From a virus: 29,678 bases of DNA. The stretch covers positions 1-29,678 of the IMG/VR virus record IMGVR_UViG_3300021957_000203. The stretch is one strand, 5' to 3'. The translations under genes and the position numbers were made by a program. Of this stretch, positions 2,248-20,597 are shown piece after piece. Under the pieces are notes generated by a model. The model ran no database searches, was not told where the DNA came from, and saw nothing but the letters and a program-made list of their open reading frames with translations. Position 1 is the first letter of the stretch. Each line of letters begins with the position of its first letter.

Positions 2248-3761
2248 TATCCGTACTCCGCTAAGTTTTTAGTGCATAAAGCGTAGTAGCCTGATGGCGG
2301 AGCATATTCGAATGTTCCGTACCCATTCGCATCTGTAGCTGCACTTGAGATTGTTATAGTTGTGAAACCACCAAAGTTTACATTTATTACAGTTGGTGCT
2401 GTATGATAATAACCACCTACAGCTGGAAAAACAGTCCCAGTTCTTGTTGTCGTTGTATCAGTAAATGCATATCCACCAGTACCATTTGCTCCACTTCCGG
2501 GATTACCACTATTAACATAGGTATTATCTTTAGCAAAATAAACAAAACCATTATCAGCATCTATGGCTACTCCCACAATATTACTAATAGTGTAATTAGC
2601 GTTAACATTTGATGTAGAACCTGTACCTAACCAAATATTACCATAACTACTTGAAGTATCGCTACCAAGATAACCTATTGAGTTTGTACCGTTTTCACCA
2701 GGAAAACCATTTGTATCAGAATGATCTTGTGCCCAATCTACTAGGTCACTCTCATCTCCCCAACCTATTGATGTAATATGTGTATTACTAGTTCCTGGTT
2801 GAGCTTCAAAATACCATTTTCCTGAAGTAAGTCCTATGCTAGCTAACCCTGCAGCCCAATAACCTGCTCTTCCAGTTGTCCATCTTGTAGCACCTTCTTT
2901 AAAAGTTGGGTTATGACTTGATGTACCTGAGTACTTATGTAATGGATTAAGTGTAGCAAAATTATTAGTAGGCGTGTCCGTAGCTTGGTCGGCTGCTGTG
3001 ATGTTGTTTGAAGTTAAGTTATTTCCATTGCCACTAGAGTCAAGTCCCATATTTGAACTATCCTCAAATTTTAAATGAAATCCATTTGTTCCGTATGCTC
3101 CTGTATAGGCTTTAGGTTTCCAAATACCACTATCTTCATCATACTCACCAAAATCACTTGCAGTTTTTCCAGACTGTCCGTCTAAAAAATGAACATCAGC
3201 TATGTAACCCGACCAAGGATAACCACCATCACCCTGAGCACCTACAACTATTTGTGAGTTGGCAACATTCATAGCAGTATCATCATTTTGTGCTGGGTAT
3301 TGGTCATAGTCTAAATCAGCAGGTAATAATAATGTTCCATTAATATAAATTTTAGTTCTATTCGTATCAGTGCTTTGTGTTGTATCTTGCATGACTACAA
3401 TGTGATACCAAGCAGATGTATCTCTTAATCTTTGAAGACTTGTTAGCCTTTTATTGCCACTACCAGCTCTTGAATCAACCCATAATTGGTCTGCACTATA
3501 GAAAAATCCAATTCTTGTAGGCCATCCACTATATCCACCACTTCCATCTGAGGTCATTGAACTAAAAAATTGCCAATACTGATTAGTACCATCAAGTTCA
3601 CTTCTTTTAATCCACATACTGGCACACCAAACTTTTGCGTTACCTGCGGAACTTACAACTCTTTTAAGATATTCTGTATTAGCTTTTTCTACTTTTAAAG
3701 AGTTTTCAATATCATATCCAGTAGGTACACTTCCTCTATTTGCTGCTTCAGTTAAAAACAT
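2247..3761 (-). CDS. LamG-like plus SPRY-like lectin domain tail protein
   Basis: This encodes 504 residues with two probable beta-sandwich domains. Residues about 45-200 look like a laminin-G/concanavalin-like lectin domain: VWCASMWIKRSEL, then AWYHIVVMQDTTQ, KIYINGTLL and GYIADVHFLDG. Residues about 314-500 look like a SPRY domain: GKWYFEA, TSIGWGD, YGNIWLG, IVGVAIDADNGFVYFAKDN, VFPAVGG, VINVNFG, and finally APPSGYYALCTKNL, a classic phage SPRY ending. Both folds commonly bind glycans or proteins, so this is a strong candidate for a host-recognition protein. The start codon is one base after the upstream TAA and has no clear ribosome binding site, suggesting coupled translation. The domain calls rest on recognised motifs; the ligand is unknown. 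Confidence 0.75.
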   Translation of the reverse strand: MFLTEAANRGSVPTGYDIENSLKVEKANTEYLKRVVSSAGNAKVWCASMWIKRSELDGTNQYWQFFSSMTSDGSGGYSGWPTRIGFFYSADQLWVDSRAGSGNKRLTSLQRLRDTSAWYHIVVMQDTTQSTDTNRTKIYINGTLLLPADLDYDQYPAQNDDTAMNVANSQIVVGAQGDGGYPWSGYIADVHFLDGQSGKTASDFGEYDEDSGIWKPKAYTGAYGTNGFHLKFEDSSNMGLDSSGNGNNLTSNNITAADQATDTPTNNFATLNPLHKYSGTSSHNPTFKEGATRWTTGRAGYWAAGLASIGLTSGKWYFEAQPGTSNTHITSIGWGDESDLVDWAQDHSDTNGFPGENGTNSIGYLGSDTSSSYGNIWLGTGSTSNVNANYTISNIVGVAIDADNGFVYFAKDNTYVNSGNPGSGANGTGGYAFTDTTTTRTGTVFPAVGGYYHTAPTVINVNFGGFTTITISSAATDANGYGTFEYAPPSGYYALCTKNLAEYG

Positions 3762-6700: not shown

Positions 6701-7941
6701 ATAGCTCCTGCTATATCTTGTATTGATTCTGTAGTTTGTAATTGACTTGTTAAAGCTATAGTACCTGCTGTAGCTGGTAAAGTTACTGTCGGATTACCGC
6801 TAAAGCTACCATGTGCAGGTGCTTGGAGTCTTAAATAATGAGCATTATTTGTTTCACAATATAAGTCTATATAAGACTGTGCACCACCATTTTTAATTTT
6901 AATTGCACCTTGTGATATTGATACACCATTTGTAGAGCCGCCACCGACTCCGACTGAAGTTACTACATCAATAGCATCTGCTAATTGATCACCAGTTACT
7001 TGGTCGTCATCTATATGTCTAGTAAGAATACTATTTGAAGCTATCTTAGTACCGTCTATTGCGTTGTCTGCTACATTACCCGTAGCGATTGTATTAGCCG
7101 CTATCTGTGTTGTTGTAATGGTCGCTGCAGCTATTTGATCTGCTGTGACTTGGTTATCGTCTATGTGTTGTGTAAGGACTGCATTATTTGCTAGTGTAGT
7201 AGTTATTGATACTCCTGCTGAGCCATCAAAGTTCACTGTACCTGTTACTGCTCCAGCAACTGCTATTGCTCTTGGAGTTGTTAAAGTTGCGGCTGAGCCT
7301 GTTGTGTCTTGATTTAAAGTACCAATTACTAGATCGATCGTGCCATCGCCGTCTTCGTAAGTTGCGGTTATACCTGTTTCAGTATTACTAGTAAACATCG
7401 CCCCTGCAATGTCTTGTATTTCTTCTGTAGTTTTACCTCCAGCACCATATGAGAAAGATCCATCTCCGTCAGAAAGCACTGCTTGTCCTGATGTTCCATT
7501 ACCTGCTATATTTAATTTAGCGGCTGTTATAGCATTATCAGCTATCTTTGCGGTTGTTACATTGGCATCTACTATATTAGCTGTAACGACAGCATCATCA
7601 GCGAGTTTAGCAGCTGTAACTGCGTCTGCTCCGAGTTGATCTGTTGTTACTTGAAGATCATCAATATGTCGGGTAAGTATTGAGTTCTGCGCTATTTTAG
7701 TTCCGTCTACGGCGTTATCTGCTATGTTTCCTGTTGCTACTGTGTTTGCTGCTAATTCTCTGCTAGATATTACATTTTCAGCAATCTTTACTGCTGTTAC
7801 TGCGTTATCTGCTATTTGTAATGTTGTTACAGCATTAGTTGCTATCTCAGAACTGCCTACAGCATTTTCCGAGATGAGTGAAGAAGTTATAGCATTATTT
7901 GCTGGAAATGTATCTACGGGTCTCTTACCTATATATGCCAT
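3763..7941 (-). CDS. Long modular repeat tail fibre (1392 residues)
   Basis: The N-terminus MAYIGKRPVDTFPANNAIT is followed by blocks of short repeats (IADNAVTAVKIAENVISS type) at roughly residues 15-170, 265-340, 600-750 and 860-940. These probably form a trimeric beta-structured shaft. Between them lie four copies of a module with the core IQDIAGAM..SNTETGITATY.D.DGTIDL (coded near 7325-7430, 6619-6730, 5600-5700 and 4361-4461). There is also a segment with AFIGWDESADKFIVGTG, a GTTGQRPGSPAAGMFRYNT stretch, and two tandem units containing DGVYQ...Y.VSG.TLT (about residues 980-1107). The C-terminus (TTENTTFSAPSNAVEGAII...FRYNGSVWQEIG) resembles common fibre endings. It starts at TAATG overlapping the upstream stop; GGAG lies inside the end of the preceding gene. 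The role as a fibre is well supported; the receptor is unknown. Confidence 0.85.
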   Translation of the reverse strand: MAYIGKRPVDTFPANNAITSSLISENAVGSSEIATNAVTTLQIADNAVTAVKIAENVISSRELAANTVATGNIADNAVDGTKIAQNSILTRHIDDLQVTTDQLGADAVTAAKLADDAVVTANIVDANVTTAKIADNAITAAKLNIAGNGTSGQAVLSDGDGSFSYGAGGKTTEEIQDIAGAMFTSNTETGITATYEDGDGTIDLVIGTLNQDTTGSAATLTTPRAIAVAGAVTGTVNFDGSAGVSITTTLANNAVLTQHIDDNQVTADQIAAATITTTQIAANTIATGNVADNAIDGTKIASNSILTRHIDDDQVTGDQLADAIDVVTSVGVGGGSTNGVSISQGAIKIKNGGAQSYIDLYCETNNAHYLRLQAPAHGSFSGNPTVTLPATAGTIALTSQLQTTESIQDIAGAMFSGNTETGITATYQDADGTIDLVIGTLNQDTTGTAATVTGAAQTAITSVGTLTGLTTSGNLVVGGNLTVTGSTVTNSSTNTTIEDRLIELGTGTTGTPANDMGIVLERGDSANAFIGWDESADKFIVGTGTFTGASTGNLSITTGTIVANVEGNVTGNLTGTASAIADNSVTSAKIVNGTIVAADIANNAILTQHIDDNQVTADQIAAGTITTTQIAANTIATGNVADNAIDGTKIAQNSILTRHIDDGQVTTDQLGADAVTAAKLADDAVVTANIVNANITTAKVADANITTAKIADNAITAAKLSIAGNGTSGQAILSDGDGTFSYGSSGKTEEEIQDIVGAMTTSNTETNITVTYQDSDGTLDFVVDAAQPNVTSLGTLTSLTVDDIKINGSQIGHTSDEDAIAIASNGVVTFSQIPVVPNDSIGADQLAANSVVSASIVNGSIVSADIAANTIATSNIADNAVDGSKIASNSILTRHIDDNQITGDQIADDIVLSGTGALRMPDGTTGQRPGSPAAGMFRYNTTEGKFEGYTDSWGEVGGGGSNGFLTDIFDGTTTPATDGSRVAFTMSQAVSDEKFVMVFIDGVYQAHNAYSVSGSTLTMADAPVADRVLTVHSVSAAVQGDGLNVDNFTGDGSDVTFTLSLNPTHENNTQVYVDGVYQFKNTYAVSGTTLTFSAAPPNGAGIEVMTHTQTTINNAAGLAAGAISGLSQVTIAAADHLMFFDATDNTLKKGLASDLIEQLTTEEVQDVIGAMVSSNTESGITVAYDDSDGTLDFTVGTLNQNTTGSAATLTTARTIGGVSFDGSANIDLPGVNSAGNQATSGLAGTATALATARTIGGVSFDGTANIVPTTFSAATFSGAITGATSARITQVALTSSSAAVAWDATAAANAYHVTTENTTFSAPSNAVEGAIIQVEIAQGGTARTIAWNTVFEFAASTAPTVTATANKTDIFTFRYNGSVWQEIGRVQNMAQT
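4361..7430 (-). repeat. Four dispersed copies of the IQDI-GAM/NTETGIT fibre module
   Basis: Within the 1392-residue fibre gene, four segments of about 100 bases encode the same module: near 7325-7430, 6619-6730, 5600-5700 and 4361-4461. All read as (E/S)IQD(I/V)(A/V/I)GAM, then NTE(T/S)(G/N)IT, then a Y.D.DGT(I/L)D core. They alternate with shaft repeats. The pattern suggests growth of the gene by internal duplication of a shaft-plus-module unit. Confidence 0.75.
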
Positions 7942-8276
7942 TATGATTGCTCCATGACTGATACGATTGTATCTATTGAACTGGCTGTGTCAGATTCTAC
8001 TTTTATTATATCGCCTGTTTCGAGTACTAGTTTTTGGTCACCACCCACTGCTACGAGTGCGCCTCCTTCAAAAATTTCTGCATTTTTTACAACGAAAAAA
8101 TGTGCGGTTGCTGAGCTATCAAATACTCGAATACTAACTTTTACAGGGCTAGTACTTGTTACATTTGCACAAGTAAGTCCGATTACAGTAGTAGTTGTTG
8201 AGCTTGGAACGGTATAAACTGAAACTTCAGATGCACCTGTAGCTGCTGCGGCAGCGTTTTTGAATGTATTTGCCAT
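7941..8276 (-). CDS. Small virion structural protein, paralogue of the 107-residue protein at 10483-10806
   Basis: This encodes 111 residues, probably all beta. It shares a clear pattern with the 107-residue protein at 10483-10806: E...Y..P, T..V..LT..N, F.VKN, a G-rich turn, then D.I.V.S...SSID.IVSV.E. The two are therefore diverged copies of one family of small phage structural proteins with no known biochemical role. A short ribosome binding site (AGGA) sits 7 bases before the ATG and overlaps the end of the 62-residue gene. The stop overlaps the start of the long fibre by one base. A fibre-attachment, decoration or capping role is possible but not shown. Confidence 0.6.
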   Translation of the reverse strand: MANTFKNAAAAATGASEVSVYTVPSSTTTTVIGLTCANVTSTSPVKVSIRVFDSSATAHFFVVKNAEIFEGGALVAVGGDQKLVLETGDIIKVESDTASSIDTIVSVMEQS

Positions 8277-8280
8277 ATTA

Positions 8281-8469
8281 TTATCCTAGTGCTATTGCGA
8301 GTGCGATAACATCATCTTCTACAGCTTGAGCAACTATTGCGTTATCTGTTTTCCGAAGATATATCTTTCCGTCTACTGCGCTTATTGCAAGTTCGCCAAC
8401 ATCTATATCACTAGTTGTTGGTGCTGTTGTATTATTTATATTTCTTTTTAATTTAATTTGTTGAGTCAT
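8281..8469 (-). CDS. 62-residue stand-alone Mtd-N-like fibre N-terminal module
   Basis: The protein runs MTQQIKLKRNINNTTAPTTSDIDVGELAISAVDGKIYLRKTD. This matches the typical pattern of phage fibre N-termini related to the N-terminal domain of the major tropism determinant (Mtd): IK.kR......P....l..GEL......dgklyl. In larger proteins this module anchors the fibre to the tail. Here it ends about 20 residues after the conserved part. The neighbouring 395-residue protein at 8469-9656 starts with the same module (IIKIKRTTGATAPSALNAGELAFS), so this gene may be a trimmed duplicate. Start and upstream stop share one base (TAATG). I am fairly sure it is a real gene because of tight packing and the motif; its function alone is unclear. 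Confidence 0.7.
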   Translation of the reverse strand: MTQQIKLKRNINNTTAPTTSDIDVGELAISAVDGKIYLRKTDNAIVAQAVEDDVIALAIALG

Positions 8470-9656
8470 TAGCTATATGTCCCACCGTCTATGTTTTGGT
8501 ATGCCAAAGCTGAACCGTTTGATACTAAAATCTGTCCTGAAGAACCGACTGAAGATAACCCTGTACCACCTTTAGCTGTTGCTATTGCTGTTGCGTTCCA
8601 TATACCTGTTGTAATTGTTCCTGTTGTTGCTAAGTTCGGTATAGAAGTTATATTACTTTGACCCGCCCCCATTACAGTAGTTGCTTGTGTAGCTAGTCCT
8701 GATAGATTAGCTGCAATCGTTCCTACTGATCCACTAAATACATTGTTTGTATCTGTTGCATCTGGTATGAAAGTAAAGTTTCCTGAGCTATCATCGAATC
8801 CAAAGAAACCATTCTTTGCTCCACCATCGCTCCATTTGAATTTTATACCTCTGTCTAAATTATCGTCGCTTGCACTTGATCCAATTTCAAAAATTGGGTC
8901 TGCGATAGCAACTGTTGTTGAATCGACTGTTGTTGTGGTACCAGAAACTGTTAAGTTACCTGTGACTGTTAAATTATCGCCTACGGTTACTTCAGAAGTC
9001 GTGTGACCAACTGTTACAGGAACTCCTGAAACATTTGCTCCAATTTTAATTCCACCTGTAGTATCAGTAGTATCAATTGTAACATCATCAGTTGCATCAA
9101 TATCAAAAGTGGTGGTATTCATGTCGACTGCACCAGTTACTGTGAGTCCTGCAATAGTACCGACGCTTGTTATGTTTGGTTGTGCGGCAGTTGATAAAGT
9201 ACCTTTTACTTGACCGCTTGATCCGTAAATTACTGCTTTGTTGTTTACAACTGTATTTGCGACTGATCCGTCAAGTAAGTTTAATTCTGCAAAGGTTGAT
9301 GTAATACCATCTAGTGCTGAATTTATTTCTGTTGCTGTTGCTGTAACTAATGTATCACTTCCTGAAGTACCTAAGTATAATGCTGAAGTTCGTAGTTCTG
9401 AAGTAGACTTGTTTGCGTCTACAATTAGTGCTGAACTTGCTGTAGTAGTACCATGAGCATGATCCATTAAGTTGCTAAAGTAATTACCGCCAATTACTGT
9501 TACAGCATTTGAATTTGCGGGATCACCAATAAATAACCTTTGACCGAGATTGCTTTGTGTACCTGTTCCCCCAGAGAAAGCTAATTCACCTGCATTCAAG
9601 GCACTAGGCGCGGTAGCTCCTGTCGTTCTTTTAATTTTGATTATATTTACTGCCAT
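8469..9656 (-). CDS. Tail fibre with Mtd-like N-terminal module (395 residues)
   Basis: Residues about 4-45 carry the Mtd-N-like attachment pattern (IKIKRTTGATAPSALNAGELAF..G......LFIGDP). A middle part contains low-complexity beta repeats (TATEINSALDGITSTFAELNLLDGSV, a pattern common in phage fibres). It is followed by GNLTVTGNLTVSGTTTTVDST and then GIKFKWSDGGAKNGFFGFDDSSGNFTFIPD. That last block is related to the AFIGWDESADKFIVGTG segment of the 1392-residue fibre. The C-terminus contains ATAKGGTGLSSVGSSGQILVSNGSALAY, the usual 'GGTG' fibre motif. Its ribosome binding site and stop context (CTAGGATAACAAC before the ATG) closely resembles that of the gene starting at 8276. It is probably a tail-side fibre or attachment protein. 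Confidence 0.75.
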   Translation of the reverse strand: MAVNIIKIKRTTGATAPSALNAGELAFSGGTGTQSNLGQRLFIGDPANSNAVTVIGGNYFSNLMDHAHGTTTASSALIVDANKSTSELRTSALYLGTSGSDTLVTATATEINSALDGITSTFAELNLLDGSVANTVVNNKAVIYGSSGQVKGTLSTAAQPNITSVGTIAGLTVTGAVDMNTTTFDIDATDDVTIDTTDTTGGIKIGANVSGVPVTVGHTTSEVTVGDNLTVTGNLTVSGTTTTVDSTTVAIADPIFEIGSSASDDNLDRGIKFKWSDGGAKNGFFGFDDSSGNFTFIPDATDTNNVFSGSVGTIAANLSGLATQATTVMGAGQSNITSIPNLATTGTITTGIWNATAIATAKGGTGLSSVGSSGQILVSNGSALAYQNIDGGTYS

Positions 9657-9665
9657 GTTGTTATC

Positions 9666-10067
9666 CTAGAATGAGCCTCCGTCTAATGTGAAGCTCGTGG
9701 GAGAAGATCCCCCTGCTGAGGCAATTGTGTGCCATTCGAATCCACCTGGTACTTGTCTATATACAAATAATTCATCTGATGAAGTATTGTACCATAAATC
9801 ACCTTCGGCTAAATTATCCCCAGATGGTGTGGATGCTTGCCTAAAAAATTGGTCTGCTAAATCTGCTAATGCTTCTTGAACATTTCCGCCAGGAAGTGTT
9901 CCTGTTTGCGTATATGTTACTTCTCCTGCTTGGTTTGCAGGAAATGTTAAATCGGTTGTTGTGGTTACAGTTATAGGATTATCACTTTGATTTAGTGTAA
10001 CAGTATTATTTGTTTCATTTACTGTTACATAAGTAGGTGTTTCTGTGACTGTGACTGTTATTGCCAT
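9666..10067 (-). CDS. Virion structural / fibre-associated protein (133 residues)
   Basis: The N-terminal 40 residues are a threonine- and valine-rich beta stretch (MAITVTVTETPTYVTVNETN). The middle (GNVQEALADLADQFFRQAS) looks helical. Then comes GDLWYNTSSDELFVYRQVPGGFEWH, a variant of the 'GDLWyNt..g.lyvy.dG.W' motif found in many phage fibre and tail-tip proteins. The C-terminus ends FTLDGGSF, which probably echoes the YNIDGGTYS-type ends of nearby fibres (compare IDGGTYS at the end of the 395-residue protein). The start overlaps the upstream stop by one base. It most likely works with the following fibres; no enzymatic motif is seen. Confidence 0.6.
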   Translation of the reverse strand: MAITVTVTETPTYVTVNETNNTVTLNQSDNPITVTTTTDLTFPANQAGEVTYTQTGTLPGGNVQEALADLADQFFRQASTPSGDNLAEGDLWYNTSSDELFVYRQVPGGFEWHTIASAGGSSPTSFTLDGGSF

Positions 10068-10402
10068 TATCGTGTAACTTCTGGAGATACAGTAACATTT
10101 CCTTGTAGTATTCTAGTTACTGAGCCTGCACCTGAAGTGATCTCAATGTCATATACATATATTCCTTCTTCTATATTTGAAGTTGTAGAATTAGTCATCG
10201 TAAGAGTTATTTCCCCTCCAGAAGCGTTGGAAAGGGTACATGATATTGTGCCCACTACAGAACTAGAGTCGTGAGTTGAGCGAATCTGAGATGCAACTGA
10301 GTACCCAGTCAAATTCATTGCTGAGTTGTTTTCCTGCAAAGTCAGTACACGATTGAAAGTTGTGCCTTGCTCTATCGTGAAATTGTATGTTCCTGCCGCC
10401 AT
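10067..10402 (-). CDS. BppU-N-like/structural beta protein, first gene of the fibre module
   Basis: This encodes 111 residues with the pattern YNFTIEQGTTFNRVLTLQ, then MNLTGYSVASQIR, GEITLTMTNSTTSNIEEGIYVYDIEI, and an end VTRILQGNVTVSPEVTR. This layout is widespread among small phage proteins annotated as structural or as resembling the N-terminal domain of baseplate upper protein (BppU). It is the first gene after a consensus promoter and has the best ribosome binding site seen here (GGAGG, 10 bases from ATG), so it may be made at high level. The likely role is a small tail-tip or fibre-adaptor protein; this is inferred from the family pattern. Confidence 0.65.
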   Translation of the reverse strand: MAAGTYNFTIEQGTTFNRVLTLQENNSAMNLTGYSVASQIRSTHDSSSVVGTISCTLSNASGGEITLTMTNSTTSNIEEGIYVYDIEITSGAGSVTRILQGNVTVSPEVTR

Positions 10403-10482: not shown

Positions 10483-10806
10483 TCAGACATCACTTTCCTC
10501 ATACGTTACGATAGCATCTATTGAAGAATCTGTTGTACTTAGAACTGTTATGTAGTCGTTTGCGCTCATTGATAGAGTTCCACTACTACTTATAGCAATG
10601 TGTCTTTGTCCTTTATCTAATACTCCATTTTTTATAAAGTATACAGTATTATTATCTGTGGCATTATAATATCCGATATGAAATGTAAGTAAACTTTCTG
10701 TAATATTAGATACTGTTACCATTGATACAATTGCTGTCTTGTCTGTTGGACATTGATAAATTTTTGTTTCTGTCAAGCCAATGCCTGAATGTGTTTTTGT
10801 TGTCAT
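10483..10806 (-). CDS. Small virion structural protein (107 residues)
   Basis: This is a beta-rich protein related to the 111-residue protein at 7941-8276. Shared features are the E-K/V-Y-P start (TETKIYQCPTDKTAIVSMVTVSNIT), the FIKNG turn, and the end DYITVLSTTDSSIDAIVTYEE. A ribosome binding site (AGGAGC) lies just upstream and overlaps the end of the 190-residue gene. It is the last gene before the promoter gap, so it closes the tip-accessory block. The family is common in phage tail regions but has no assigned activity. I infer a structural role. Confidence 0.6.
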   Translation of the reverse strand: MTTKTHSGIGLTETKIYQCPTDKTAIVSMVTVSNITESLLTFHIGYYNATDNNTVYFIKNGVLDKGQRHIAISSSGTLSMSANDYITVLSTTDSSIDAIVTYEESDV

Positions 10807-10807
10807 G

Positions 10808-11380
10808 TTATGCTCCTTGTAAGTCGAAAATTAAATAGGCATAGCCAACTGCTACGCCGCCTTGTGTAAACCTAGAGGTTTCTGAACCGCTAGACACGAA
10901 TTTTTTTACTTGTCCTACCATATTATTTGTTATTGTTAATGTTGAATCTGTAACCGAGTAGGATACTCCTCCTTTTGTCTGTTTAATATGTCCATTTGTT
11001 CCAAAACTTGTAGCAGCCTCTGATGTCCAATCAAGAGTTGAAGTATACATTTTTGTTGCAACTCCCCCAGATATATCACTCTGTAAACACCACTGTACTA
11101 TCACAAAAGGAATAAATCCTAAATTATGAGTAATAACAGCAACTGAATCAGAAGCCCCTATAGTACTGCCACTGGTTAATGCACTATTACCTGGTATGCC
11201 CAATAGTCCTTGTCCGTAGTTTTTTAAATTTAAAGATCCTACTCCTACTTCGGAATCAAACTGTAAGTTATCACGATCTGTTAAAACATTGCTTCCATTT
11301 ATTACATCTGTGCCTGATTTAGATACATATAGTCCATAATCTTCACCGCTTGGTTTTCCTATTAATAATCTTTTTGCCAT
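10808..11380 (-). CDS. Tail-tip accessory protein with KR-LLIGK N-terminal module (190 residues)
   Basis: Residues 1-45 (MAKRLLIGKPSGEDYGLYVSK.GTDV..........LQFDS) repeat the N-terminal motif of the 163- and 909-residue neighbours. The rest is different. It contains VAVITHNLGFIPFVIVQW, a 'tHnLGy.PfV.v' motif common in phage fibre tips, and a beta-rich end (GGVAVGYAYLIFDLQGA). The start overlaps the previous stop by one base (TAATG at 11380). The conserved N-terminus probably attaches the protein to the tail tip, with the C-terminus facing out. This is inferred from the shared-module layout. Confidence 0.6.
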   Translation of the reverse strand: MAKRLLIGKPSGEDYGLYVSKSGTDVINGSNVLTDRDNLQFDSEVGVGSLNLKNYGQGLLGIPGNSALTSGSTIGASDSVAVITHNLGFIPFVIVQWCLQSDISGGVATKMYTSTLDWTSEAATSFGTNGHIKQTKGGVSYSVTDSTLTITNNMVGQVKKFVSSGSETSRFTQGGVAVGYAYLIFDLQGA

Positions 11381-11871
11381 TATACTGGTCCTCTTATTAC
11401 TGCGTATTTTATACTTTGTGATGCAGGCGCAAGTTTAGCTGTTGTTCCTATACCATAAAGTGTGGCTAAAGGATAAGCCGTTCTAAAACTTGGATAATAG
11501 TAAGGCACTCTGAATGTAAGTTTTTTATCAGGATCATTTCCTGTCGCGGATAATGCCCAATTACTATTGCTATTGGTAGAATCCCCTTTTATTACTTTTA
11601 CAAATACATTTCCATATACAATTACGATTGGATTTGGTATAGAAATATCAGAAAAAGTTCTAGTTACATTGTTATTTGTTAAAGTTGATCCATTAAACCC
11701 ATCCCTAGTAACTGTAATTGTTTCTTCAAAAATTAATTGACCGTAGCCTTTCTGTCTACTATCAAATATTAATTGATCAGCGTTTGCAGTTGTAACATCT
11801 ACGCCTGCTCTTGATACGAGTAGACCATAATCACTACTATCTATCTTTCCTAATAATACTCGTTTGCTCAT
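11380..11871 (-). CDS. Tail-tip accessory protein with KRVLLGK N-terminal module (163 residues)
   Basis: I place the start at 11871 (MSKRVLLGKIDSSDYGLLVSR). The frame is open 17 codons further upstream, but those residues do not match the paralogues and would overlap the Hint gene by 55 bases. With this start the overlap is the ATGA type (11871-11868). Residues 1-40 match the 190- and 909-residue paralogues (KRVLLGK, DYGL.VSR.GVDVTT, LIFDS). The C-terminal part (ISIPNPIVIVYGNVFVKVIKG...YYYPSFRTAYPLATLYG) is unrelated to either and not recognised. It is probably a tip or fibre accessory protein. Confidence 0.65.
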   Translation of the reverse strand: MSKRVLLGKIDSSDYGLLVSRAGVDVTTANADQLIFDSRQKGYGQLIFEETITVTRDGFNGSTLTNNNVTRTFSDISIPNPIVIVYGNVFVKVIKGDSTNSNSNWALSATGNDPDKKLTFRVPYYYPSFRTAYPLATLYGIGTTAKLAPASQSIKYAVIRGPV

Positions 11872-12266
11872 TTTACTAAATATCCTCCTGCGTAGAAGTT
11901 TGAATCTGAAGTTAATATACATCCTTCTAGTACTGTGTCCAGGTGATTTAATAAACTAATTCTTTCTAACATACTATGATCAGTAAGTAGATGGTCTCCT
12001 ACTAATAAGTTTTCTGCTGTTTTCCAGCTCCAGCTTTCGTTTCTATACACATAAAGTTCCACATCTTCTTCTACATATAGTTTATTGTTTATATTATATT
12101 GTTGACTACAAGTACCTGTAGTTACTATTGCTGTTACTTCTCCTTCAATCCAGTTATGAGGATCGAATTCTTGTGCTTGTAGTTTATCCTCTACAGAGAA
12201 ATGCTGTATGGCTTTTCTTAATTTATTTGGAGTAGAAACATAAGTTCCATTTTTAATAATTTTCAT
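11868..12266 (-). CDS. Stand-alone Hint (intein/Hedgehog-like) domain, catalytic residues apparently lost
   Basis: This encodes 132 residues that align by eye along their whole length with a Hint fold. NGTYVSTPNKLRKAI...VEDKLQA (6-31) matches the start block '.gT.v.T..G...i..l.vGD.v'. GEVTAIVTTG (42-51) and INNKLYVEEDVELYVYR (59-75) match the block containing T..H. WSWKTAENLLVGDHLL (79-94) matches 'W..a.eL.vGD.l'. SNFYAGGYLVK (122-132) matches 'hNFyangilvHN'. In active Hint domains one expects Cys/Ser at the first position, T..H in block B, and a final His-Asn. Here the protein starts with Met, has E-E-D-V instead of T-x-x-H, and ends Val-Lys-stop. I infer a non-splicing structural or accessory domain. 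The gene is packed between two KR-LLGK paralogues. Confidence 0.7.
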   Translation of the reverse strand: MKIIKNGTYVSTPNKLRKAIQHFSVEDKLQAQEFDPHNWIEGEVTAIVTTGTCSQQYNINNKLYVEEDVELYVYRNESWSWKTAENLLVGDHLLTDHSMLERISLLNHLDTVLEGCILTSDSNFYAGGYLVK

Positions 12267-12267
12267 A

Positions 12268-14997
12268 TTACTCTATTCCTCCACCGCCAAAGTTACCTGT
12301 TATAACCGTAAAAGTGTCTGATACTCCTCCAACTGTAATTGTTGCAGACTGTGATTGGAAGTTACCTGTTCCTGAACGTACAAATACTGTTATTATATCT
12401 CCTACAGTTACTGTTTGGCTTCCTGTTCCAAAAGAACCACTATTTACTTTAAAACCAGAAATAGCACTACTACTGATAGTTGCTGTAGCAGAGGTATTCA
12501 TGCCTGCCAAAGTTATTGAGTCTTGATGTACCGTAGTAGTTTGAGAATTTGTAACGTCAGTGAAACTAAATGCATCTGGTGTAGAGTCGGAAGCTGCTTC
12601 TGTAGTAACGGTAAAAGTATCTGATACTCCTCCAACTGTAATTGTTGCACTTCGTGCAGTACTGTTACTTGAAGACGACGTTATTTTTACATGAATTTGT
12701 GTTCCATTTGATACTGATTTAGCTGATTGATTATAAGTTCCATTTATTCCTGTAACACTAAAACTTCCATTTGCATCTCCGCTATAAGTTGCATTTGTTG
12801 CTGTGTTTATTCCTGTGATTTGATCATTCGCAAATGTGTCTGTATTTAATGCTCTATCGGCTACATCACTAAAAGTGAATTGATCGGGTGTTGTATCAAC
12901 AGCTATTCCTGCTTGAGTATAAGTAAAGGTCATAGTGTGAGTATGCCCAAACTGTGTAGTAGTAGTATAAGTCACTGTTGCATTTTGTGCACTCGTACTT
13001 GAGTTCGCACTAGTAGTTAAATTAAAACCACCAGAAGATGAATTTGTTATAGAGCTTGATAACCAGCCTCCTGAGTTATTACTAATACTTGTGCTTACTG
13101 TTCCCCAAGAAGAAGAATAAGTATTAAAATTTCCCCCTGCTCTTTGAAGAGGAACACTATAAGTTGCATTTTTTGAAGAGGAGTTTTCACTAAAATTTGC
13201 TATTGCTGATAATGTTACAACAGGTGGAACAAGTTTTGTTGCTGTTAAAACAGAACTGTTTGCTTCTCCGACATTTCTTGCATAATATGTTACTGCACTT
13301 CCACTTCGATTTTGTGAAAAACTGTGTCCATTTGATTGCCAATTACTACCATCATTTGAAACTTGCGGAGTTCCTGTTCCTCCACTTGCTGTTGCTGTTA
13401 CTGTTTGTGCTGTTCCACTTGTATTTGTTGTTTGTGTAAGTGTTAGTGCTGTTGGAGGAGAAGCGGTTACTTGAGATCTTGTTGTTACAGTATAACTACC
13501 CGTTTTATCTCCAACTGTTAAAGTTGTACTTACGGATGTATTAAAACTTCCACTTGATGTTAGTCTTACATTTATAGACTGATTATTTGTAATAGTTCCA
13601 GAAGTTACATAAGAACCGCCTGCAATACTAAAACTTCCATTTCCACTAATACTTACTGCTGTGGCTACATCTATTCCAGTGATTGTTTTAGTATTTGAAG
13701 TATTTACTGTACTTAACTCAGATCCAGTTGCTGTATTAAAGTTACCAAAGGCATCTGGAGAATTATCTGAAGGAGTAGGTGCTGGTGTATTTATTGTAAA
13801 AGTTCCTTGCACCCCTCCAATAGTTACTGTTACTACAGTAGAATTTCCTGCTGAAGCTGCTGTTCCTGTTGCTGTAACAGTTCCATTATTTACAACAGTG
13901 GTTACATTAACTGTTCCACCACTAACACTTACTGATGCACTATCTCCATCCGCTAACCCAGCTATTGCTGATGAGGCTTGAGAAAAACTTTGTCCTGCTG
14001 TTGCGCTATTTTTAGTAGTAAAAGTAAAAGCATTTGGTGTCGTATCGACTGCTGCTGCGTCATATTGAGTACCACTTGAAGTTACCCCGCCTTGTTTTGC
14101 AAAATAGTATCGTGTAGAGTTTCTTGGTTGTGTAAAATCTGTTGAGGATTGAAAAGATGTAGGAGCAGAATTTGAAGTATTTACTCCATATGTTATTGTT
14201 CCAGAGTTATTACTACCATTTGAAGCAGATATTCGAACTGTATCATTATTTGCATCTCTTGCTATTCTACTTACACTACTAATTGTAGGAGCAGAAGGCG
14301 ATGCTCCTGAGCCCCCTCCTCCTGAAGTATTTGGTGTTGGTTGAGTAGTAGTATTAAAAAGAGCATCTGTTTCCATTTTTCCATATTGACATGGAATTCG
14401 TAGCATAAGTATATCTACAGATACCAAAGCATTTGATGCAATTCCTCTGTCTACTATCCAAGGATACCCTGCCTCAAAAGCAGGAGTAGAACCATCTGAA
14501 AATGCACTTGAATATTTTGATGCTTCAATCTGTTTTGCTTCTATTGCATTTATATTTGCTCCTGAACCTGTAGTTGTTAATTCCCATAATCCTCCGCCAG
14601 ATGTAGTAGGTAACCCGCTTATATGACTTGATTCTATCTCATAAAGAACAGAGCCTGAAGGATTATGACTTTCGTCAAAACCACTTGTTGGATTAGCAAT
14701 TCCATTTTCTACAATTTGATATGCGGGAATGTAATAGTTATTGTCTGAGCCAAGAGTAGAGGGTAAATTTTGTGTAGCTCCTGATACTACAGTAGATATA
14801 GTAGTATCGGTTACTATAACGCCTGATCGAAAAGATTTTTCTGAAGTAGTAGGGCTAGATCCTGTAACTGTAGTTGTAGCACCAGAATTAAATAATAAGT
14901 CTTTTGCAGAAGTTGTTGTAGTTACGTCTACGCCAGGCTTAGATATATACAACCCATATTCTGAGCCTTTTTTACCAAGTAATACTCTTTTTGCCAT
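12268..14997 (-). CDS. Modular Ig-like/BACON-like adhesin with KRVLLGK N-terminal module (909 residues)
   Basis: Residues 1-45 (MAKRVLLGKKGSEYGLYISKPGVDVTT...LLFNS) match the 163- and 190-residue paralogues. Residues about 58-215 form a unique domain (YYIPAYQIVENGIANPTSG, IPCQYGKMETD). After a glycine-rich linker there are repeated beta-sandwich units of about 90-100 residues. They start D(S/T)(T/S)PDAF near residues 316, 409, 699 and 802, and two of them end TVGGVSDTFTV. Between them, about 590-700, is a BACON-like stretch (GGWLSSSI, FNLTTSANSSTSAQNATVTYT, FTYTQAG). Such domains often bind carbohydrates. It starts at TAATG overlapping the hub gene stop. The likely role is an elongated tail-tip adhesin; Ig-like and BACON assignments are by pattern. 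Confidence 0.7.
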   Translation of the reverse strand: MAKRVLLGKKGSEYGLYISKPGVDVTTTTSAKDLLFNSGATTTVTGSSPTTSEKSFRSGVIVTDTTISTVVSGATQNLPSTLGSDNNYYIPAYQIVENGIANPTSGFDESHNPSGSVLYEIESSHISGLPTTSGGGLWELTTTGSGANINAIEAKQIEASKYSSAFSDGSTPAFEAGYPWIVDRGIASNALVSVDILMLRIPCQYGKMETDALFNTTTQPTPNTSGGGGSGASPSAPTISSVSRIARDANNDTVRISASNGSNNSGTITYGVNTSNSAPTSFQSSTDFTQPRNSTRYYFAKQGGVTSSGTQYDAAAVDTTPNAFTFTTKNSATAGQSFSQASSAIAGLADGDSASVSVSGGTVNVTTVVNNGTVTATGTAASAGNSTVVTVTIGGVQGTFTINTPAPTPSDNSPDAFGNFNTATGSELSTVNTSNTKTITGIDVATAVSISGNGSFSIAGGSYVTSGTITNNQSINVRLTSSGSFNTSVSTTLTVGDKTGSYTVTTRSQVTASPPTALTLTQTTNTSGTAQTVTATASGGTGTPQVSNDGSNWQSNGHSFSQNRSGSAVTYYARNVGEANSSVLTATKLVPPVVTLSAIANFSENSSSKNATYSVPLQRAGGNFNTYSSSWGTVSTSISNNSGGWLSSSITNSSSGGFNLTTSANSSTSAQNATVTYTTTTQFGHTHTMTFTYTQAGIAVDTTPDQFTFSDVADRALNTDTFANDQITGINTATNATYSGDANGSFSVTGINGTYNQSAKSVSNGTQIHVKITSSSSNSTARSATITVGGVSDTFTVTTEAASDSTPDAFSFTDVTNSQTTTVHQDSITLAGMNTSATATISSSAISGFKVNSGSFGTGSQTVTVGDIITVFVRSGTGNFQSQSATITVGGVSDTFTVITGNFGGGGIE
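12317..12346. repeat. 30-base direct repeat, copy 1 (partner at 12620-12649)
   Basis: These 30 bases are identical to 12620-12649, 303 bases away. They encode the end of the last two Ig-like units (ITVGGVSDTF). The spacing is 101 codons, one full unit, so the last two units arose by duplication or exchange recent enough to leave DNA identity. Confidence 0.9.
12620..12649. repeat. 30-base direct repeat, copy 2
   Basis: Exact copy of 12317-12346; see that entry. The identity extends a further 8 bases on the low-coordinate side after one mismatch. Confidence 0.9.
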
Positions 14998-17900
14998 TAT
15001 GAATCATCCGCAATTATTATTTGACCGCCGTTTGCCGCAGAGATTTCTACATAGTTTGTGCTTTGTGCTGAAGTATGTCCTAGGAATAGACTACCAGCAG
15101 CAAGACGAGTTACCGCACTAAATTGTGCACTTAATCTTGTATCCTCATTTTGAACATTTCCAAGTCCTACGTCATCAGCATCTGTTCCTGATCGTATATC
15201 GGCAACACTTGTTGTTGCCCCGTCTGCTAAACTTGAAGTAAGTGTTAAACCTGCAGCATTTAGTATAGTTACTAGTCCAGCAGCATTTGTAGCTCCTGTA
15301 CCGCCTTGATCTACAGGTAAAGCTCCTGCAAGACTTGTTATTGCTAAAGATCCTGAACCGCTTAGCTTAATTCTGTCTGCAGTAATTGATCCTGTATCTA
15401 TATTTCCACCATCAATAGTAGTAATATTAGTTCCGTCTGACTGTTTAAAAGTTCCACCTGTAAAAGTTACTACTCCGTCAAAGTTTATACTTTTTACAAC
15501 ATTACTATATGCTACTGATATTGTGCTTGAACCTGCTGAGGACTCTGTTCCATAGTATCGAACAGTCCAAAAAACACTATCGCCTGTTACATCTTGAGTA
15601 TTTGAAGAGTTCAACCAAATATCATTTGGTTGGTTTGTTGCTGTACTTATGCCTGTTCCAGTAACTATTCCAGTACCAATTGTATAAGTATTACCGCTTG
15701 GAGCACTTGGTGCAGTACTAGCACTTGCTCCAGTTTTTTCGTAAAATAAGTATCCTTGAATTGTTCTTAGACCAGCTGCTCCTGCAGAACCAGAACCTGA
15801 AGTAATAATTCCAATCGGAACTTGTCTTGTAAAAGTTTCTCCAGTATCAGTAATAGTTACTTTTAGTAGTTTTGGAGAAGTACTTGAGCTTGCTGAACTT
15901 GCATCTACAGTAGCGCTTGAAGCAGTCAAACTTGTTGCTCCAGTAGTAAATGTTACATCTGATTGTGAACTACCGTCTGCCTCTACAAGAGAGAATGTTG
16001 GAGTTCCTGATAAATTTTGTAGTGTTGCTGTAACTGTAACATCTTGGTTTGAACCTGCGGGGTCTAAATCTCCATCAGAATCAAATCTAAAGTTTATAGA
16101 TGCATGACTGACTTGTATATCTGGAGAAATGATTTTTGAAGTACCTGTAACTCCTCCTGTTGCACTTGTAGGGTGATATGCTGAAGTTAATACTTTTCTA
16201 CTTTTTAATTGATTTGTTAATCTTCGTACTCTTACCCAGTAAAATTTAGTTCCAGCACCTGCAGTTGTATATGTAAAAGTTGTTACATTACCAAGTTCAA
16301 CATGTAGTAAAGTTGCATTTGCTCTATTATTATCGTTTGATACCCAGATTTCTACATCATCACTTTCATCAACAAAGTCTGTTGGATTTGTCCAATTAAG
16401 AATTACACTTCCTGGTTTAGTTGTGGTTGCTGAAAGATTTGTTGGTGCACCTGGTGCAGCTAAAGGCTGAGCTTGTGTCGATGCTTCTTGTCTTAGCTCA
16501 TTTGCTCTAGCAGCAGTAATGATATACATATCATCTGAGTATTCGGTTGCTTTTATAGCAACAGAACAATCTGCATTAAAGTTTAAATTATTAATTCGGA
16601 ATAGCTTACTAGAAAATCCAAAAGGCGCGTATGAGAGTGCAATAACTTGACCAGCTTTTAGCAATAATCCTTTTGGTCCTATCTTAAAACTAATCTCTCT
16701 ACTAAATCTTGTACTAATTAATTCTTTTTCTGTGCCTATTCTTGCATTATAATAGTTTGTAATACCTGTATAATTAAAGTTTCCTGTTTTTATTACTTTT
16801 CTATCTGCTTCTAAGAAATTTTTATTGAAGAAAGACACACTTCGTGATGACCAGTTATTTGCTGGATCTGTAATGCTTGCTTTGATTGTATTTTTCGCAT
16901 TACGTACTGAATTATCCGTTAATGAAATGCTACCAATAATATCTGTATTATCTATGTATTCTGGATTAACATTCCAGTCATAAGTCTCAGAATTAAATGT
17001 TGTACTTGTAGTAGGTGCTGTTGCTTGTGTTTCTATATCAAGAACATATTTTCCTGCCTCATAAGAAAGTAATCCATTCATATGAGATAAGAATACATTC
17101 ATATTTTCAAAAATTGACTTTGAAGTATCTATAATAAAGTTTGTTTGATGTCGAGTTACAAAACATTGCTTGTGATGTTCCCAACCATAATATCTCCAGT
17201 ATTTCACAAAGTCTGAGTCATATAATGAATATGTAGGATTAATTGATTTATTGCCTACAGCATCAATAACTACAGCACTTGGACCTGATCCTGATTCTTT
17301 AGTTAAGCTAAAAGTTCCTGTACTTATATACGTAGCTCCTGAAACTGTTCCAGAAGTATGTGTGGGTTTTGCTGTAATATACCCTGCCCCAGATTTTTGA
17401 TAAAGATTATCTTCTGTTACTATATACTCATCGTCTGCATATGCTATATGATTTCCATATAAACGAACAAACTTACCTGATAAATTATCAAAAGTTACTG
17501 TATTTGTTCCTACAGTTTTTACTCGTCCTGAGCCTAAATGATTACTACTTGCATCTGCTATTTTGTAGTAGTCTCCTACTGTTATGCCTGCTGTTCTTGT
17601 TCCTAGTGTTAGAGTTCCTCTTACTTCGCATAATTTTGCAGAGGAAATAAAAGAGGCTAAATCTATATCTTCATTTATATCAAGATTTTTTCCATAACGA
17701 ACATCTTTCATGTAATCAAGTAGTTGTAATGCTGTATTTGTTACTGCTCTCTTATCTCCTTGTGCGCCTGATATATCAAATTTTACTTTGCCTGCATCAT
17801 AGTCAGCTTCTTTTAGTGTAGTAAAAGGTTTTTCTATTTCTATTCTTTTTTCATTTGCTGTGTAGCTTGTAATTCTTTGTTCTTCCCCAGTATGTCTTAA

Positions 17901-20597
17901 AGTAATTGTTGCTCCTGTAAAGTCTGCATTACTATCAAATCCGTCAAAAGGTTGTCCTGATCCCCCCATACTAAAGTTTCTACTTTTGTATATATCTATA
18001 TTTAGTACATTTGGAACACTGCTTATAGCAACACCACCGTTGTTTGCTGCAACATATTTTACATTTTTTAGTGTAAGAACGTCTCCACTCCATGTACCTA
18101 CAGCTTGACTGTCCTTATAATGTGATAATTTAGTGCAGTCATTTGTGAAAAAACTATACAATGCTTTTCCTGGCTCGTTTGCTAGTTCATTTGTATACCC
18201 TGCTTTTAGTAAATCTGAAGCTTTGGTAGGGGGTGTTGCTGAGCTATCAACGACAGTATCAAAAGTAAATTGTACTTCGTTGCTCGCATTTACTCCGACG
18301 GCTGAAGGGGATTGTGCATACACTGCGAAAGATTTATTTGTAATATTTTTATGATTAAATGTTCTCATGTGCCAATATTGAGCGGCACCTGTTTTCTTGA
18401 GTCTTAAATAAGTTTTTGTTGGAAGACCATTTACTGCATCTAAATCTGGAGTTTGGTCTAAAAGAAGTCGTTGATGACTTGTTCCGTCATTGTTTGATAA
18501 TAAGTACTTATGTAATATTCTAAAACTTGTGTCCGAAGGAAATCCCTCTACATTTGTAGTAGACCAAGAACTTCCGTCTGTACTTCTTTCAACAGTAACA
18601 GTATCTCCTTCTTTAAAGTTTGTGTGTGCATCACTTGCACCTAGTACTGCATCAGGAACATAGGAGTTATCAAAGTTAAAACACTCTAGTACTCTGCCTC
18701 GAACTACATATTCTAGCTCTGGGATTTCAGTTGAGTCTGCAGATATTACAAATGCATTTACCATATAAGCAGTATCTAGTAATCTATGGTCGGGACTCCA
18801 ATAAGGAAAGTCTCCTGTATAGTAATCTTTTTGTCTTTTAAACCCAGTACCTTCTGCTTGAGTTACTAGCATATTATTAGCTAGCTGAGAATTTGATCCT
18901 TTATTAAAGGTAAAAGACATATTATGTGGGTGCGATATACTTCCATGCTGTTGATGTTGCAAACCTGCTGCATCTGCTGCTTGGGCAGTTATACTTGGTA
19001 CGTCTGTCTGAGACACATTTGCAAAGAAAAAACCACCTTGTCTTTGCAGTTGTCTCATTAAAGCTTTTAATTCTTCAGGAGGAGATCCGTCCTCTACTGC
19101 TTCTAAAATCATTTGAGCTGCAGGAGAGTTCGCGACAAAACTTGTTAGTGAGCTTGCTTGTGTTGTATCTGCAACGCCTCCGAGAGTATCTCCTCTGTCT
19201 GCTCTACCATAACACTGTAATTGACTATTGTCTTTATCACTGCCATTAGTAGAATCCCGTACGCCTGCGTCTGCTGCATCAGTACAGATTAAAGGAATAC
19301 CGTCAATATATAAATTATAAAGACTATGAATTTCTCCTTCACAGATTGCGTCTGCAACATATATTATTTTTGAATCATTGTTATCTGTATCTGCAAATAT
19401 TGGCACACCAGGAATTCTTTGAACTCCATATACAACAGGTAGGTATTTTCCTTGTAACCCAATACTCAAATCTACTTCATTATCTATTGCTACTTGTATT
19501 TCTGTCGAAGTTTGTTTTCTATCCCCAAATAAACCTGCCACTCCTCCTCTTTTTTTACTGCCAATTACTGTTTTTGTTTCGTAAGTTTTGTAGTTTGCAA
19601 TTGCACTCAGTGTTGTTTCTGAATGTATAAATCCTAAGTCAGTTGCATACTCAGGTTTTATTGTCATTTCATCGTCTGGTATTCCGAATCCGTCTAAAGC
19701 TCTATGAGTATCATCTGTTGTTAGTCGACCACCGACTTGAGACCAATCTCCCCAATGACTTGTAAGATTCCATTTTACATTACTTGCCGTTGCAGTCTCA
19801 GAAATAGAACAACCAGCTATTATTCCTTTAAATACAAGTATACTAGAGTTTCCTAGTAAGTCGCCAGTTTCTGGATTTATGAAAATTTTGTGAATAAACA
19901 CTTCTCGATTGACAAATGCAGGGCTTGCAAGACTTAAAGTTGCTTTATCATTTAAAACTCCTTTAAGTTCGTCTGATTCTAAAGATATGGTTACGCTTAC
20001 TCCAGTATCAGTAGGGTAAGTTGTTGTGTCATCTGTGTCATCTCCAGTAGTAGCAAACGTCATTTTACGATTATCAGTTGCAAACCCAGTAATAATATAA
20101 GTTACAGAAGTAACTCCAGTAGAAAATGTACCACTATTTTTTGTTATCTTTACTTTGTCTCCTTCACGAAAACCAAAGTCTGCTAAGTCGGTAGCATCTG
20201 CGTCATCGTGAAAAGTAGTTGCTACTGTAAATGCGGCACTGCCGAAGTCTCCCACTATAGATAGGGAAGTTCCAAGATGATCTCCTGAAAGTGTAAGAGC
20301 CATATTTGTTGCTCTTGGTGAAGTTGTTTCCGAGTAAGAACCAATAGATTTTACTCTATTTGCTCTATAAATTTGAGAACCATTAGCCTGATCGTTATGA
20401 TCAGTACTAGTATCATTAAAACTTATATCACGACTTGCGTCTGTAAAATATGCATAACGATTCGCATTAGTACGAAATTTATCTGTATCTGGGTCTTTTG
20501 GAAAAGGTCTTTCAAACTTTATAAGGTGAGCATACTCAAATTCAGAGTTGCTAACAAGTAGTTCTTCAATAGCTGTCGGGACTGTTCTTTTTGTCAT
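14997..20597 (-). CDS. Tail tip/hub protein, J-like with apparent L-like N-terminus (1866 residues)
   Basis: The N-terminal 300 residues (AIEELLVSNSEFEYAHLIKF, VFKGIIAGCSISE, NVKWNLTSHWGDWSQVGGR) resemble lambda gpL/DUF2163-type minor tail proteins. From about residue 386, LPVVYGVQRIPGVPIFAD, then ICEGEIHSLYNLYIDG, matches the lambda J/hub family. Residues about 1140-1370 (FIIDTSKSIFENMNVFLSHMNG, RFSREISFKIGPKGLLLKAGQVIAL) match the conserved hub core. A fibronectin type III-like domain follows at about 1381-1465 (PGAPTNLSATTTKPGSVILNW). The end is fibre-like (GGNIDTGSITADRIKL, PVDQGGTGATNAAG). It would close the tail tube and carry fibres or bind the host. The start and stop both overlap neighbours by one base. 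Hub identity is well supported; domain borders are rough. Confidence 0.8.
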   Translation of the reverse strand: MTKRTVPTAIEELLVSNSEFEYAHLIKFERPFPKDPDTDKFRTNANRYAYFTDASRDISFNDTSTDHNDQANGSQIYRANRVKSIGSYSETTSPRATNMALTLSGDHLGTSLSIVGDFGSAAFTVATTFHDDADATDLADFGFREGDKVKITKNSGTFSTGVTSVTYIITGFATDNRKMTFATTGDDTDDTTTYPTDTGVSVTISLESDELKGVLNDKATLSLASPAFVNREVFIHKIFINPETGDLLGNSSILVFKGIIAGCSISETATASNVKWNLTSHWGDWSQVGGRLTTDDTHRALDGFGIPDDEMTIKPEYATDLGFIHSETTLSAIANYKTYETKTVIGSKKRGGVAGLFGDRKQTSTEIQVAIDNEVDLSIGLQGKYLPVVYGVQRIPGVPIFADTDNNDSKIIYVADAICEGEIHSLYNLYIDGIPLICTDAADAGVRDSTNGSDKDNSQLQCYGRADRGDTLGGVADTTQASSLTSFVANSPAAQMILEAVEDGSPPEELKALMRQLQRQGGFFFANVSQTDVPSITAQAADAAGLQHQQHGSISHPHNMSFTFNKGSNSQLANNMLVTQAEGTGFKRQKDYYTGDFPYWSPDHRLLDTAYMVNAFVISADSTEIPELEYVVRGRVLECFNFDNSYVPDAVLGASDAHTNFKEGDTVTVERSTDGSSWSTTNVEGFPSDTSFRILHKYLLSNNDGTSHQRLLLDQTPDLDAVNGLPTKTYLRLKKTGAAQYWHMRTFNHKNITNKSFAVYAQSPSAVGVNASNEVQFTFDTVVDSSATPPTKASDLLKAGYTNELANEPGKALYSFFTNDCTKLSHYKDSQAVGTWSGDVLTLKNVKYVAANNGGVAISSVPNVLNIDIYKSRNFSMGGSGQPFDGFDSNADFTGATITLRHTGEEQRITSYTANEKRIEIEKPFTTLKEADYDAGKVKFDISGAQGDKRAVTNTALQLLDYMKDVRYGKNLDINEDIDLASFISSAKLCEVRGTLTLGTRTAGITVGDYYKIADASSNHLGSGRVKTVGTNTVTFDNLSGKFVRLYGNHIAYADDEYIVTEDNLYQKSGAGYITAKPTHTSGTVSGATYISTGTFSLTKESGSGPSAVVIDAVGNKSINPTYSLYDSDFVKYWRYYGWEHHKQCFVTRHQTNFIIDTSKSIFENMNVFLSHMNGLLSYEAGKYVLDIETQATAPTTSTTFNSETYDWNVNPEYIDNTDIIGSISLTDNSVRNAKNTIKASITDPANNWSSRSVSFFNKNFLEADRKVIKTGNFNYTGITNYYNARIGTEKELISTRFSREISFKIGPKGLLLKAGQVIALSYAPFGFSSKLFRINNLNFNADCSVAIKATEYSDDMYIITAARANELRQEASTQAQPLAAPGAPTNLSATTTKPGSVILNWTNPTDFVDESDDVEIWVSNDNNRANATLLHVELGNVTTFTYTTAGAGTKFYWVRVRRLTNQLKSRKVLTSAYHPTSATGGVTGTSKIISPDIQVSHASINFRFDSDGDLDPAGSNQDVTVTATLQNLSGTPTFSLVEADGSSQSDVTFTTGATSLTASSATVDASSASSSTSPKLLKVTITDTGETFTRQVPIGIITSGSGSAGAAGLRTIQGYLFYEKTGASASTAPSAPSGNTYTIGTGIVTGTGISTATNQPNDIWLNSSNTQDVTGDSVFWTVRYYGTESSAGSSTISVAYSNVVKSINFDGVVTFTGGTFKQSDGTNITTIDGGNIDTGSITADRIKLSGSGSLAITSLAGALPVDQGGTGATNAAGLVTILNAAGLTLTSSLADGATTSVADIRSGTDADDVGLGNVQNEDTRLSAQFSAVTRLAAGSLFLGHTSAQSTNYVEISAANGGQIIIADDS

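Follow-up and report, generated by a model that had tools for sequence, protein, structure and literature searches.

A free-standing Hint-fold protein lacking catalytic residues in the T5-like tail module of a marine phage

Introduction

The window analyzed here, a 29,678-nucleotide stretch of marine phage DNA taken as a whole, encodes a 132-amino-acid protein that consists of a complete Hint domain alone, located between two fibre-like genes of a tail module and devoid of the residues by which such domains splice or cleave. Hint domains are known as enzymes with a single round of action, on the very chain they belong to. This one probably serves the tail in its structure or assembly instead of working as an intein: the fold seems to have been reused for another purpose, most likely binding, in a family that is under selection, has lost its active site, is free-standing, and is inherited with one type of fibre. 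Some of this was already on record. The annotators of phage NCTB noted both stand-alone and fused “intein domain” proteins, and an 82% identical protein is present without annotation in UniProt. No paper describing such Hint proteins in tails was found in the open-access literature, and what is new is the combination, in one Hint family, of selection, absence of an active site, and a tie to a single type of fibre.

Identification of the Hint fold

The gene occupies positions 12266-11868 of the window on the minus strand, from ATG to TGA (stop included). Searches of Pfam, PHROGs, and the PDB with this single sequence returned nothing significant; the first lead was a tblastn match (E = 1) to an NCTB protein annotated “contains intein domain.” An initial annotation, made from the sequence alone, had proposed a Hint match from end to end, to be checked by profile comparison and structure prediction, and both bear it out. 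In hhalign, a three-sequence alignment (the window protein plus two relatives, 82% identical) was compared with six Hint domains from phage fibre clusters, and matched them end to end over 125 columns (probability 95.9, E 5.5e-9, score 55.2). Controls stayed far below this, with at most 20.6 among 200 column-shuffles, 13.3 for the reversed alignment, and no more than 19.4 for ten other proteins from the window. A Hint HMM built without the window family matched six of six family members at E-values of about 1e-11 to 1e-13, with 300 shuffled sequences at 0.08 or worse; a PT-HINT HMM run over the relatives' contigs was too insensitive to detect the window-type family.

An AlphaFold2 model from a 25-sequence alignment has a mean pLDDT of 95.4 and a pTM of 0.87, with the qualification that this alignment included Hint domains picked by motif; the profile tests are independent of it. 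It supersedes a model from three sequences only (pLDDT 34). When the newer model was compared with the PDB, the first 31 matches (E<=0.001) were all BIL, intein, or Hedgehog structures, with no unrelated fold, and among the 50 matches listed Z-scores to Hint, intein, BIL, and Hedgehog chains were 13.7-19.6, spanning residues 1-132. BIL and intein structures head the list of solved matches (Z 19.6, TM 0.87), with the BIL2 domain of Tetrahymena closest (rmsd 1.6 over 129 residues at Z 19.6); a Clostridium BIL, the DnaB, gp41-1, and RecA inteins, and Hedgehog are also near. Profiles and predicted structure together show the window protein to be a complete member of the Hint (Hedgehog/intein) superfamily, with no additional domain.

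Loss of the active site

The absence of splicing residues, also remarked upon in the initial annotation, is confirmed by alignment and by structure. In the alignment, the Cys1 position is occupied by I3, the block-B T-x-x-H by E66 and V69, and the penultimate His by K132; the terminal Asn is missing, its position falling past the stop codon. In the other five family members the Cys1 position is I/I/I/L/L, the Thr E/E/E/N/N, and the His V/V/L/L/L, with Lys at the penultimate-His position in all. Structural alignment agrees: residue 3 is superposed on the residue with which inteins and the Hedgehog domain begin, and residue 132 on the penultimate position, 142, of BIL2 (whose terminal residue is N143). 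With only two residues before the Cys1 position and none after that of the penultimate His, there are no flanking exteins. With these boundaries the protein resembles an intein-type domain whose excision has been written into the gene.

The residues required of class 1 and 2 inteins (Cys/Ser1 in class 1, T-x-x-H, penultimate His, and terminal Asn) are lost in all six members. Class 3 inteins depend on a catalytic block-F Cys; as read by eye from the alignment, the corresponding residue is T119 here and T/T/T/V/E/E across the family. BILs are cleavage-competent without a +1 nucleophile, but need Cys1 and a terminal His-Asn, which are absent, leaving a resemblance in fold only. A split-intein half would be an incomplete domain, and this one is complete. 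The protein might nevertheless be a processing enzyme still, whether as one half of a pair that is split or acts in trans, or as an intein with non-standard residues, given that inteins tolerate many active-site changes (PMC7664689). With no C-terminal Asn or flanking sequence, no Cys1 or Ser1, and no second Hint detected in the window by Pfam search, this is the least credible of the readings considered, and the initial suggestion of half a processing pair, for which neither an incomplete domain nor a remaining catalytic residue is found, is not upheld. C116 is offset from the class 3 block-F position and is not conserved, being absent from two members (loci L093 and L096). Judged from its residues, the window Hint has lost catalysis and can neither splice nor cleave.

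Conservation and selection

Five distinct relatives, from 82 down to 21% identical, are without the same catalytic residues. Complete loss of these is what would be expected if the gene were a functionless, decaying leftover of an autoprocessing fibre. That interpretation is very improbable and already contradicted: dN/dS is 0.12, 0.18, 0.14, and 0.31 in four close pairs of the family, the reading frame is intact in six distinct lineages to 21% identity, and the predicted fold is complete and of high confidence. With such low dN/dS in close pairs the family is not decaying, and these values show a gene kept under purifying selection. A conserved C-terminal GG..LVK-stop is confounded by its overlap with the ribosome site and start codon of the next gene, which may account for part of its conservation. 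The L093 member, used as query in one scan of genomes of bacteria and archaea, had no relative there.

The surrounding T5-like tail module

The gene order is that of a T5-like tail tip, with homologues of the major tail protein, pb9, and pb3 in sequence: major tail protein, tube protein, tail assembly chaperones, tape measure, pb9-like protein, pb3-like hub, fibre A, Hint, proteins B, C, and D, and a protein resembling L-shaped-fibre assembly proteins. The initial description of a free-standing, non-splicing Hint within a tail-tip cluster is thus accurate for this 132-amino-acid ORF. The principal genes, in the same order, are:

21313-25989, minus strand: tape-measure protein (phrog_3779)
20597-21313, minus strand: distal tail protein, pb9-like (PF21425, 4e-8)
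14997-20597, minus strand: T5 pb3-like baseplate hub / central fibre J protein, 1866 aa
12268-14997, minus strand: fibre A, 909 aa (phrog_4924 short tail fiber, 5e-9)
11868-12266, minus strand: stand-alone, catalytically dead Hint protein, 132 aa (profile, model, and alignment evidence)
11380-11871, minus strand: protein B, 163 aa, same N-terminal module
10808-11380, minus strand: protein C, 190 aa, same N-terminal module
10483-10806, minus strand: protein D, 107 aa (distant match to phrog_1276)
10067-10402, minus strand: L-shaped-tail-fibre-assembly / collar-like protein, the first gene past the A-to-D cassette (phrog_3304, 3e-18)

The N-terminal module that A and B had been said to share (MAKRVLLGK...YGLYVSKPGVDV) is indeed common to both, and to C as well; a tblastn search of phage records with protein C gave no match. 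In fibre A the module is followed by a Gly-rich linker and Ig-like/TTPDxF repeats, and the C-terminal end is GGGGIE. The stop codon of A is 1 nt ahead of the Hint start. Protein B truly starts at 11871 (MSKRVLLGK), not at 11922 as in the ORF list (a 180-aa ORF, 11922-11380), and its ATG overlaps the Hint TGA as ATGA, so that the two genes share four bases only. Every Hint gene in the family has its own GGAGG- or AGGAG-type ribosome site and the same ATGA overlap with B, and the two are presumably coupled in translation.

Two other possible features of the A-Hint junction were considered and set aside. A programmed frameshift fusing A to the Hint was rejected: in the loci L001 and L002 the two genes stand in a different frame relation from that in the window, and a separate ribosome site serves every Hint gene. 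The terminal Gly run of A might be taken for a remnant of a Gly-Cys1 junction, but was not relied on, since its GGAGGA codons double as the Hint ribosome site and the run is absent in L092 and L093. Farthest away in the tail cluster, positions 1120-2247 and 2247-3761 encode virion proteins with DUF7483 (4e-74) and SPRY (9e-7) domains.

Pairing with the long fibre and cassette exchange

A scan for long-A N-terminal modules yielded the relatives L092, L093 (identical to L094), and L096 (identical to L097 and L098), each with a long fibre A, a Hint gene of 128-138 codons, and then B, C, and D; D comes after C in those Hint-bearing relatives where the stretch is visible. All six distinct long-A loci with a visible downstream end (the window, L001, L002, L092, L093, and L096) carry the Hint gene, a co-occurrence that, given the kinship of the long-A cassettes, may stem from only a small number of independent events. 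It is also present in L110, a near-copy of L092; L006 and L018, whose contigs end inside A, were left out of the count. None of 14 short-A loci (A of about 140-300 aa) has it, the three N-module genes abutting with gaps of 4 nt or less. A fused A-Hint was not seen within the T5-like group.

The pairing does not simply reflect whole-genome descent, because two loci without the Hint gene are close to the window elsewhere (L019, with a 58% identical hub protein, and L107, with 67-97% identical downstream genes), while L093, with a hub only 37% identical, keeps the entire A-Hint-B-C-D arrangement. These comparisons show that A-Hint-B-C-D moves as a cassette in mosaic genomes. The proposal that the Hint protein works with its neighbours is thereby sustained in part, at the genetic level: in conserved order, apparent translational coupling, and inheritance as a cassette. 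L107 displays a clear mosaic boundary against window positions 7941-10402, with downstream tail genes up to 97% identical and a wholly different, Hint-free A-B-C cassette. An extra 184-aa gene, nucleotidyltransferase-like by eye, lies between fibre A and the Hint gene in two loci (L092:9264-9818 and L110:1738-2292), and a 62-aa gene adjoins the Hint gene in L093.

These insertions demonstrate that accessory genes do enter at this point, and the Hint gene could conceivably be another, a host-interaction or accessory gene (moron) that sits between A and B by chance. All long-A cassettes have it and no short-A one does, however, and its overlap with the B start codon would be unusual in a newly inserted gene; this origin is considered improbable. 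A more serious competitor, though still a minority view, is that the protein is an assembly chaperone only, aiding the folding or attachment of A (or of A with B) and absent from the finished virion, in the manner of Tfa-type proteins. Its small size, the position of its gene directly after the fibre, and the strict pairing with long fibres all accord with this, and chaperone domains are commonly located at the C-termini of phage fibres. The same observations would fit a virion component equally well, and Hint folds are not a known chaperone class.

Hint domains at fibre ends in other phages

Viral contigs were scanned with the motif W.W..[AV]..hydrophobic..[VI]GD.L, which returned 57 loci, mostly true Hints. 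Many of these are C-terminal on fibre-like proteins, often behind a Gly run, with Cys1, T-x-x-H, and His-Asn intact. The collagen fibres of NCTB, Erwinia phages, and Afa-NA1 have such a C-terminal Hint with all of these residues; they are the fused, Cys1- and His-Asn-bearing homologues whose existence the initial annotation had proposed looking for, and its idea of kinship with autoprocessing fibres is supported by the occurrence of the same kind of domain there. One fibre-terminal Hint (L045:6556-7050, minus strand) has kept Cys1 and T-x-x-H but carries Lys-Asn where others have His-Asn; the window family shows this His-to-Lys change too.

In NCTB and the IMG/VR contigs L064 and L090, all from jumbo phages, a fused, intact fibre-Hint is followed in the next gene by a separate 153-aa dead Hint, from which Cys1 and the block-B His are gone; two small fibres with a common N-terminal module come next. 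The gene order of the window thus recurs although these phages are unrelated to it. Among the loci sampled, all complete Hints encoded on their own are dead, and nearly all of those at fibre ends are intact. L031 and domain 1 of the L033 type depart from this pattern in being dead yet fused within larger proteins, and loss of catalysis is therefore not bound to fission alone. In a tree the window-type and jumbo-type stand-alone Hints fall on one side, with support of only 59/53, a topology compatible with one or two origins that does not single out a fused ancestor.

The L033 type is a protein of about 900 aa with four tandem Hint domains, found in marine T4-like contigs (L033:2828-4618, L035, L039, L057, L060, L063, and L082). 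Domain 1 is catalytically dead. Matches to the Pfam AXH module (ataxin-1/HBP1), at 6e-18 and 1e-17, come from domain 2 and, for L035, from domain 4. The Hint profile also matches ataxin-1 AXH structures at 1e-4, which suggests that AXH is a derivative of the Hint fold.

Proposed role and origin

The explanation we favour, with somewhat better than even confidence, is that the window Hint is a pre-excised, non-catalytic binding partner of fibre A, derived from a fibre-fused ancestor. Its gene is read after that of the long fibre A and before that of the small, fibre-like B, and appears to be kept only where A has a long distal extension. It may bind A either as a tip or adaptor piece that stays on the fibre, or as a dedicated assembly factor. 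It probably descends from a Hint domain that formed the end of a fibre protein, an arrangement found in other phages now; once the domain had a gene of its own, autocleavage would have been unneeded and the catalytic residues could be lost. The match between the gene ends and Hint cleavage positions is consistent with such a fission history, though no proof of it. A more specific version, in which gene fission at the autocleavage sites replaced autoprocessing and the dead Hint serves in virions as a non-covalent fibre tip module, a pure binding fold, is advanced tentatively and could well be wrong.

The comparison points to a large and little-described set of intact Hints at phage fibre ends, where autocleavage is directly testable. 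Fused and active domains on the one hand, and separate and dead ones on the other, also provide a natural contrast with which to ask what cleavage is for.

Comparison with known systems

A close equivalent is NCTB BN7874_135, an “intein domain protein” (SBV38304.1), with its counterparts in L064 and L090. Like the window protein, these are stand-alone Hints (about 150 aa) encoded between a long fibre and two small N-module fibres, and Cys1 and the block-B His are lost; in having its own gene and these losses, the window Hint resembles them. They differ in keeping the C-terminal His-Asn, in lying beside an intact fused Hint, in their collagen-type fibres, and in belonging to jumbo phages, and are 18-23% identical to it. 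The fibre-C-terminal Hints of NCTB, the Erwinia SNUABM phages, Afa-NA1, and many IMG/VR contigs share the domain and the association with fibres, but are fused and catalytically intact.

Among solved structures the BILs are nearest (Tetrahymena BUBL1 BIL2, 6y75 and 6tmm; Clostridium thermocellum, 2lwy), with Z-scores of 17.9-19.6 over 127-129 residues. BILs are embedded in precursors and have a catalytic Cys1 and His-Asn, whereas the window protein has neither these residues nor the flanks. T5-like phage records searched with the window Hint yielded no Hint protein of its type; the tail module itself is T5-like, by comparison with the pb9, pb3, and L-shaped-fibre assembly proteins of the T5 tail tip. 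UniProt A0A218MLH4, an uncharacterized protein from an uncultured virus, is at 82% identity and equal length a direct, unannotated orthologue.
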